From contig NZ_MUXE01000003.1 of the NCBI RefSeq assembly GCF_003063245.1, positions 62,001 through 126,000 on the forward strand: a stretch of 64,000 bases of DNA, in the 5' to 3' direction. The notes beneath the pieces were generated by a model. The model ran no database searches, was not told where the DNA came from, and saw nothing but the letters and a program-made list of their open reading frames with translations. The position numbers and the translations under genes are program-made. This document shows, one piece after another, positions 13,248 through 13,600 of the stretch (positions within the stretch are counted from its first letter, which is position 1; the number at the start of each line of letters is the position of its first letter). This DNA is from Arcobacter caeni (lineage in GTDB: Bacteria > Campylobacterota > Campylobacteria > Campylobacterales > Arcobacteraceae).

Positions 13248-13302
13248 AGAAAGAAAAAATTAAAAGAAGCAGTAACAGGGGAGTGATTAATTCCCCCTTT
13301 CG

Positions 13303-13365
13303 TTAATATAATTTAATCGCGAAGATTAAAAATATTAACAGTAATACTGCTAACTTAAAAAACAT
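13303..13365 (-). CDS. 20-residue hydrophobic peptide ORF
   Basis: The minus-strand ATG 13365 is preceded by AAAAGGG at 5 bases. The ORF encodes a short, almost wholly hydrophobic peptide with two lysines: MFFKLAVLLL, then IFLIFAIKLY. This is the size and make-up of type I toxin peptides such as the Ibs group; no homology can be claimed. The ribosome-binding site and start codon lie within stems formed with the upstream part of the same RNA, so the full-length transcript should be translated poorly. Confidence 0.45.
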   Translation of the reverse strand: MFFKLAVLLLIFLIFAIKLY

Positions 13366-13416
13366 GTTTACCCTTTTACTGGCACTCCCACCCAACACTA
13401 CCCACAAGATAAAAAA

Positions 13417-13445
13417 AAAGGCAAGAGAAAAAATCTCTTGCCTTT
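13417..13445 (-). terminator. intrinsic terminator upstream of the 20-residue ORF
   Basis: A perfect 12-bp stem (13445-13434 with 13428-13417 on the minus strand, core GGCAAGAGA/TCTCTTGCC) with a 5-base T loop. It runs into nine T on the minus strand and has no T-run on the plus strand. It would end a short minus-strand transcript before the 20-residue ORF. Confidence 0.75.
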
Positions 13446-13600
13446 CAGTGCCATTCTTTGGGTAATCACTCCCATTAAATAAACATGTCTTTAAGTTGAA
13501 TGAATCTTAACATAATTTAATAAATGTGTCAATAAATATTATTTCAATAACAAACTTTTTAGTTAAAATACTATTAGAAAATAGTTGGAGAAAAATTAAA

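Follow-up and report, generated by a model that had tools for sequence, protein, structure and literature searches.

In a 64,000-nucleotide stretch of Arcobacter caeni DNA (the window, by which the whole stretch is meant), the minus-strand segment 13532-13268 was found to be one copy of a widespread genetic element. Comparison of its sequence with those of its homologues established a coding, covarying and repeatedly mobilised family whose mRNA is, to judge from its conserved signals and pairings, internally terminated and self-locking. We consider it probable, by a modest measure, that the element is a toxin locus akin to type I but new in its layout, the toxin and a presumed RNA antitoxin lying on one strand and under one promoter. 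A more specific proposal, to which we give credence a little short of that, is that premature termination of the toxin's own mRNA yields a leader which serves as the RNA antitoxin; the same antisense segment and kissing loop would then provide the lock in cis and the silencing in trans, and the ratio of the two products would be set by a single strand with a single promoter and a single terminator. The element has the look of an addiction module of a new kind, with copies on both plasmids and chromosomes in Aliarcobacter, Sulfurimonas and their relatives. Rfam, Pfam and NCBIfam have no entry for this family of small toxin-like genes, which extends across the order.

Organization and distribution of the element

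Every feature named in the initial annotation was present in the window copy. Reading of the minus strand confirmed the 20-codon hydrophobic ORF at 13365-13303 and, upstream of it, the AAAAGGG at 13377-13371. The element is flanked by what we take, from the ORF sequences, to be nrdB and a glyoxalase-like gene. Its parts are listed below in the direction of transcription; A1 denotes an alignment of 16 homologues, from which the sequence-only model R1 was derived.

13504..13532, minus strand: sigma-70-type promoter, TTGACA-17-TAAGAT with an extended TG, matching the consensus at 10/12 positions
13476..13497, minus strand: segment A, the RNA 5' end, antisense to the Shine-Dalgarno sequence (SD) and start codon; cognate duplex -19.2 kcal/mol
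13459..13474, minus strand: hairpin B, TGGG-AGTGATTA-CCCA, with a loop complementary to the loop of hairpin I; stem and loop-loop covariation
13447..13453, minus strand: segment C, TGGCACT, pairing with segment F (AGTGCCA, 13386-13380), which lies directly upstream of the SD in the window copy
13411..13446, minus strand: intrinsic terminator D, a 13-bp stem (13446-13416) and nine T; predicted 3' end of a leader RNA of ~87 nt
13380..13405, minus strand: GTGGGTAGTGTTGGGTGGGAGTG(CCA), a G-rich stretch conserved in alignment A1, lying downstream of the terminator and upstream of the SD
13371..13377, minus strand: SD, AAAAGGG, paired with segment A
13303..13365, minus strand: toxin-like ORF, MFFKLAVLLLIFLIFAIKLY, 20 residues, ATG start and TAA stop
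13345..13351, minus strand: segment H, AGCAGTA, codons 5-8 of the ORF, pairing with the 3' end I2 (TACTGCT)
13278..13297, minus strand: 3' hairpin I, GGGGgaattaatcactCCCC, whose loop kisses the loop of hairpin B
13268..13274, minus strand: segment I2, end of the conserved region on the 3' side (alignment A1 and pairing with segment H)

The predicted transcription start, at about 13497, coincided exactly with the beginning of the 5' segment that is complementary to the SD/start. The 230-nt RNA of the window folded at -77.9 kcal/mol, compared to -49.0 kcal/mol for its dinucleotide shuffles (z -6.8), and terminator D was beyond chance expectation. The order of parts in the family is promoter, 5' antisense end, hairpin B, terminator, G-rich segment, SD, ORF, hairpin I and 3' end. 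The initial annotation had noted neither the promoter nor the pairing of segment H with I2, nor the existence of the family.

When the window segment was compared with 60 relatives by BLASTN, homologues were found inside the genus and in other genera. The order Campylobacterales has at least 67 homologues, in Aliarcobacter, Sulfurimonas, Sulfuricurvum and other genera, and a genome often carries several of them; the count is biased, since the search model includes the terminator. Among the 67 collected, 64 gave a complete reading, that is, a -10 box, a T run of >=6 and an SD-preceded ORF of 18-22 codons. Within the order, R1 found the element in 27/299 genomes and in 16/81 genera, the per-genus counts being lower bounds. 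A pattern scan of the named genomes yielded 35 loci, mostly in Sulfurimonas, 26 of which were confirmed by R1. The window's own genome contained three R1 matches, of which two are complete and the third has a decayed toxin, and two Sulfurimonas genomes had four matches each.

In Rfam, no family reached the gathering score for the window or for the elements in eight homologous loci, and the sub-threshold matches to the window were at chance level. BLASTN matches covering positions 66-112 alone resembled ordinary terminators of like sequence and were not taken as copies of the element; pattern matches in records of Syntrophobacterales, Thiotrichaceae and Kiritimatiellota (L070, L077 and L093) were attributed to chance. 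A very distant candidate (L063:1600-1860) had a peptide, MTRIIVIVILLLLIIVTKAY, an SD and the 3' hairpin, without the internal terminator, and is possibly a variant under another form of control.

Coding selection and pairings of the mRNA

In all 64 analysed homologues, the ORF was 18-22 residues long, starting with TTG (32), ATG (27), GTG (4) or ACG (1), and in-frame stops were absent from the ORFs of the family. In 470 pairs of 20-codon ORFs, the changes at codon positions 1, 2 and 3 were distributed as 2384:842:2592. Moreover, the mean BLOSUM score of changed residues was +0.90 in frame and -1.1 and -0.5 in the other two frames. These patterns point clearly to protein-coding selection on the ORF, a signature which rules out the purely non-coding RNA that had been put forward as an alternative. 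The peptide has a GRAVY of 3.3 across residues 5-17 and the consensus M-x-x-K-(L/I)-hydrophobic-...-(K/A/P)-L-(Y/H), its last two residues being mostly L-Y, L-H, L-N, A-Y or C-Y. It looks like a single membrane helix, and we infer that it is toxic. The initial annotation had assigned it to no recognised family, and searches of seven family peptides against Pfam and NCBIfam agreed, giving no match at a sensitivity that is limited for very short proteins. In one copy (L010/L083, JAGOHQ010000119.1) the start codon is now ACG and the leader and antisense are intact; this is perhaps a toxin undergoing inactivation.

Pairing between the 5' end and the SD/start, proposed earlier as the stems ACATGTTTA/TAAACATGT and ACCC/GGGT, was present in the window and covaried among the homologues: the 5'-end sequences vary from one homologue to another, and the complementarity to the start site is retained. 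The 5'-most 35 nt paired with their own SD/start at -19.8 +/- 4.3 kcal/mol, compared to -9.2 +/- 3.1 kcal/mol in non-cognate combinations. The duplex was weaker than -10 kcal/mol in 3 of the 64 homologues, and several cognate pairs ranked low.

Between the two ends of the RNA, the complementarity GGGAGTGATTA/TAATCACTCCC was confirmed, and in the homologues it takes the form of a kissing pairing of ~6-9 bp between hairpin B and hairpin I. Perfect complementarity of >=6 nt between loops B and I was found in 60/64 homologues, compared to 29.5% in mispaired combinations, and the loop types include TGATTA/TAATCA, TAACTA/TAGTTA, TGATGA/TCATCA, TGATAA/TTATCA and TGGCTA/TAGCCA. In A1, helix 2, which supports hairpin I and its kissing loop, was 98.2% paired, with double changes in three pairs. 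The pairing of codons 5-8 with the 3' end (helix 4) was 97.9% paired with double changes in 4/6 pairs, and its own Watson-Crick run had a mean of 7.3, compared to 5.0 for other combinations. For the A1 stems overall, 92.7% of the cells were paired and 21/35 pairs had double changes; none of 500 shuffles was as good, and sliding the stem partners by 1-3 columns reduced all the measures. The third stem of the earlier reading, TGGCACT/AGTGCCA, which encloses the terminator (C:F), was clear in the window copy, but its support across the family was weak (-10.7 vs -8.5 kcal/mol).

In modelling, the unpaired fraction of the SD/start was 0.18 in the full mRNA and 0.38 when the leader was removed; the pairing of loops B and I leaves the SD itself uncovered. 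The primary toxin transcript is thus predicted to be translationally inert. When a leader was supplied separately to the 5'-truncated mRNA, the unpaired fraction was 0.18 with the cognate leader and 0.37 with a non-cognate one, and the modelled binding of the leader was -11.6 kcal/mol for cognate and -4.7 kcal/mol for non-cognate combinations. The description of the locus as a self-silenced, type I toxin-like mRNA for a hydrophobic peptide was therefore borne out, by coding selection and by compensatory change that keeps the silencing pairings across very divergent homologues.

The terminated leader, its alternatives and the mobility of the element

The -10 box hardly varies among the homologues (TATAAT/TATACT), and their spacer is usually 17. 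The internal terminator with nine T that had been noted in the window was there, its stem covaried among the homologues, and a T run of >=6 was present at the equivalent place in 66/67 of them; the T run ended 89 +/- 4 nt from the start, and the mean energy of the terminator hairpin was -17.2 kcal/mol. The first 22 nt of the terminated leader were mostly unpaired. A 25-codon ORF running through the terminator does exist in the window, as had been noted, but it is not conserved: any ATG-started ORF through the terminator occurred in 15/64 homologues. Since such leader ORFs shared no frame, length or position among the 64 homologues, the alternative of an attenuated leader was abandoned.

Because a strong promoter and a strong terminator are conserved around a short leader that carries the antisense segment and the kissing loop, and because the cognate leader re-covered the SD/start in modelling, the terminated leader is the most economical candidate for the antitoxin, a possibility that the initial annotation had not raised. 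The leader in cis, as part of the read-through mRNA, should outcompete a copy in trans, and a role in trans therefore requires 5' processing. We infer that the terminated leader acts in trans, as antitoxin, on the 5'-processed mRNA. Transcription from the near-consensus promoter would mostly stop at the internal terminator, a step strongly supported by the sequence, giving a leader of ~89 nt with a 5' antisense and an exposed kissing loop in hairpin B. Rare read-through would give a toxin mRNA of ~250 nt that is locked from the moment of its synthesis, with its 5' end on the SD/start, its 3' end on codons 5-8 and loops B and I paired, as the structural evidence strongly supports. Removal of the 5' segment by a nuclease may then unlock the mRNA and make the start accessible, and the abundant terminated leader could act in trans on the processed mRNA, using the kissing loops and its antisense 5' end to bind and silence it, which is consistent with the thermodynamics. 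Should the locus be lost, the leader, whose 5' end is unpaired, would presumably decay faster than the locked mRNA, the 20-residue peptide would be made and the cell would be harmed. The efficiency of the terminator would fix the ratio of antitoxin to toxin. If the terminated leader is indeed the antitoxin, a single strand with a single promoter encodes both toxin and antidote; the addiction module is then very compact, at ~265 bp with its promoter, and the element offers a testable case of dose control set by a terminator.

Leaders extending from promoter to terminator were also observed without an intact toxin: two are toxin-less (L104:1015-1139 and L105:1037-1172) and one is followed by a decayed toxin (L031:7501-7737). 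The leader of L104 paired at -22.4 kcal/mol, a cognate-like strength, with the toxin start region in another congener. These three leaders are possibly orphan antitoxins or remnants, and the pairing of the L104 leader would fit either.

The same arrangement could serve as a transcriptional brake only, in which the terminator and the cis locks hold the peptide off, the leader is without function in trans and the toxin is made when stress raises read-through and processing. We regard this as rather unlikely, although all the cis pairings are supported and the full-length mRNA is predicted to be locked without any partner. A near-consensus promoter that feeds a strong terminator would be wasteful for a brake; furthermore, the leader has kept what an antisense RNA usually carries, namely a kissing loop and an antisense 5' tail that is unpaired, and toxin-less leaders exist.

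The locus might instead be a classical type I system with an IsoA- or Sib-like antisense RNA on the opposite strand that escapes detection in silico, the leader structure being the lock of an inert mRNA and nothing more. Type I toxins of such size (Ibs, AapA) normally come with an opposite-strand or divergent RNA (PMC4147584; PMC6733600), and Campylobacterota promoters can be without a -35 box, so that an opposite-strand promoter of this kind is possible. However, with a -35/-10 model built from the sense promoters, the best opposite-strand scores were below those of shuffles (3.9 vs 4.9), compared to 11.7 for the true sense promoters. When the -35 requirement was dropped, no strong antisense -10 position was common to more than 7 of the 64 homologues. 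The search for an antisense RNA suggested in the initial annotation, made here through opposite-strand promoters, found no conserved promoter among these homologues, and we consider this explanation distinctly unlikely. A second sense promoter between the terminator and the start codon also scored below shuffles.

In Sulfuricurvum kujiense, the mobilisable plasmid pSULKU04 (3,421 bp; L119, NC_014763.1) carries a complete, unannotated element, which spans the record start and encodes a TTG-started peptide, MSHLLMVFLVLMVLAPALH. Another complete element is carried by pACIB of Aliarcobacter cibarius, of which at least 850 bp are identical to a sequence on the single contig of another genome (G002). 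The neighbours of family copies include an integrase, a Fic gene, Zeta toxin, ParE, YafQ, NikA, a resolvase and a Rep3 initiator, and other copies sit among housekeeping genes. The element adjoined nrdB in 0/18 congeners, and the nearest congener (G008) retains both window neighbours with different DNA between them.

In a Sulfurimonas CRISPR array of 121 repeats (L085, MICF01000003.1), one spacer (L085:5661-5694) was identical over 34/34 nt to hairpin I and I2 of other Sulfurimonas; R1 had no match in the genome that carries this array. A selfish or addictive role fits this spacer in an element-free genome, the plasmid copies and the neighbouring type II toxin, integrase and mobilisation genes, and the spacer and the location on a 3.4-kb plasmid link the element to plasmid-host conflict. 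A second spacer of the array (L085:4935-4970) has 16 nt in common with I2 and the 3' side of hairpin I. Two spacers against one short hairpin among ~119 would be unexpected under random acquisition. Another spacer of that array (L085:5595-5630, GACCTTAATCGGGGGCTTTGCCCCCCTTAATGGTCTG) is a long inverted repeat, and the array may sample hairpin or RNA-like sequences. Phage records gave no match to the element; a single pattern match in a viral contig was discarded as a sign of phage carriage, since the ORFs there look like those of an RNA phage and the hairpin was put down to chance.

Another reading, in which the peptide is harmless and serves the cell in housekeeping or stress as a small membrane protein whose expression RNA tightly controls, is very improbable: many small hydrophobic proteins are benign and several copies lie between housekeeping genes, but the patchy presence, the several copies per genome, the copy on the 3.4-kb plasmid, the copies beside type II toxin genes, the CRISPR spacer against the element and the three layers of silencing all speak against it.

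Comparison with known type I systems

Hok/sok combines an inert full-length mRNA and end-to-end pairing with the logic of plasmid addiction; Sok is an antisense RNA of the other strand, and Hok has ~50 residues. The present family resembles it in the predicted inert full-length mRNA with end-to-end pairing and in the proposed logic of plasmid addiction, and differs in that no conserved promoter for an opposite-strand RNA was found and in its peptide of ~20 residues. Sib is an antisense RNA encoded in cis, on the strand opposite ibs. It has two recognition domains (PMC8309996). Peptide size (IbsC has 19 residues), a plain hydrophobic helix and several copies per genome are shared with ibs/Sib of Escherichia coli (PMC8309996), whereas ibs/Sib is not known to have a same-strand leader with a terminator such as the family has. 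Ibs membership of the family peptides is unsupported, seven of them having no match in Pfam or NCBIfam, where sensitivity is limited for such short proteins.

The likeness to the AapA type noted in the initial annotation held for the 5'-3' interaction and failed for membership. As with aapA/IsoA of Helicobacter pylori (PMC6733600), there is a short membrane peptide, a primary transcript predicted to be inert and a long-distance 5'-3' interaction; the several copies per genome and the bacterial order are shared as well. AapA1 has 30 residues and an essential C-terminal Lys-Arg (PMC8309996), whereas the family peptide has ~20 residues and mostly ends in Leu-Tyr, Leu-His or Ala-Tyr. In aapA, the lock is made by the 3' end and released by 3' trimming; in the new family, the 5' end covers the start site. 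The IsoA RNAs lie opposite aapA (PMC6733600), whereas no conserved antisense promoter was found opposite the family ORF in 64 homologues. The internal terminator is a feature of the family, and none is described for aapA in the passages of PMC6733600 consulted. By the features compared, the family is a member of neither aapA/IsoA nor ibs/Sib.

Type I antitoxins are transcribed opposite the toxin or divergently from it (PMC4147584). The layout proposed here departs from both, and it appears undescribed in the literature searched, which left out most subscription journals. In tisB/istR-1, shoB/ohsC, zor/orz and dinQ/agrB (PMC4147584), as proposed for this family, the antitoxin RNA is complementary to the long 5' UTR of the toxin mRNA, to a limited extent in those systems, and tisB is active only as a processed mRNA (PMC7708055). 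The antitoxins of that group have their own promoter, are divergent and leave the start site uncovered, whereas the antisense of the present family is the toxin mRNA's own leader and covers both the SD and the start codon.
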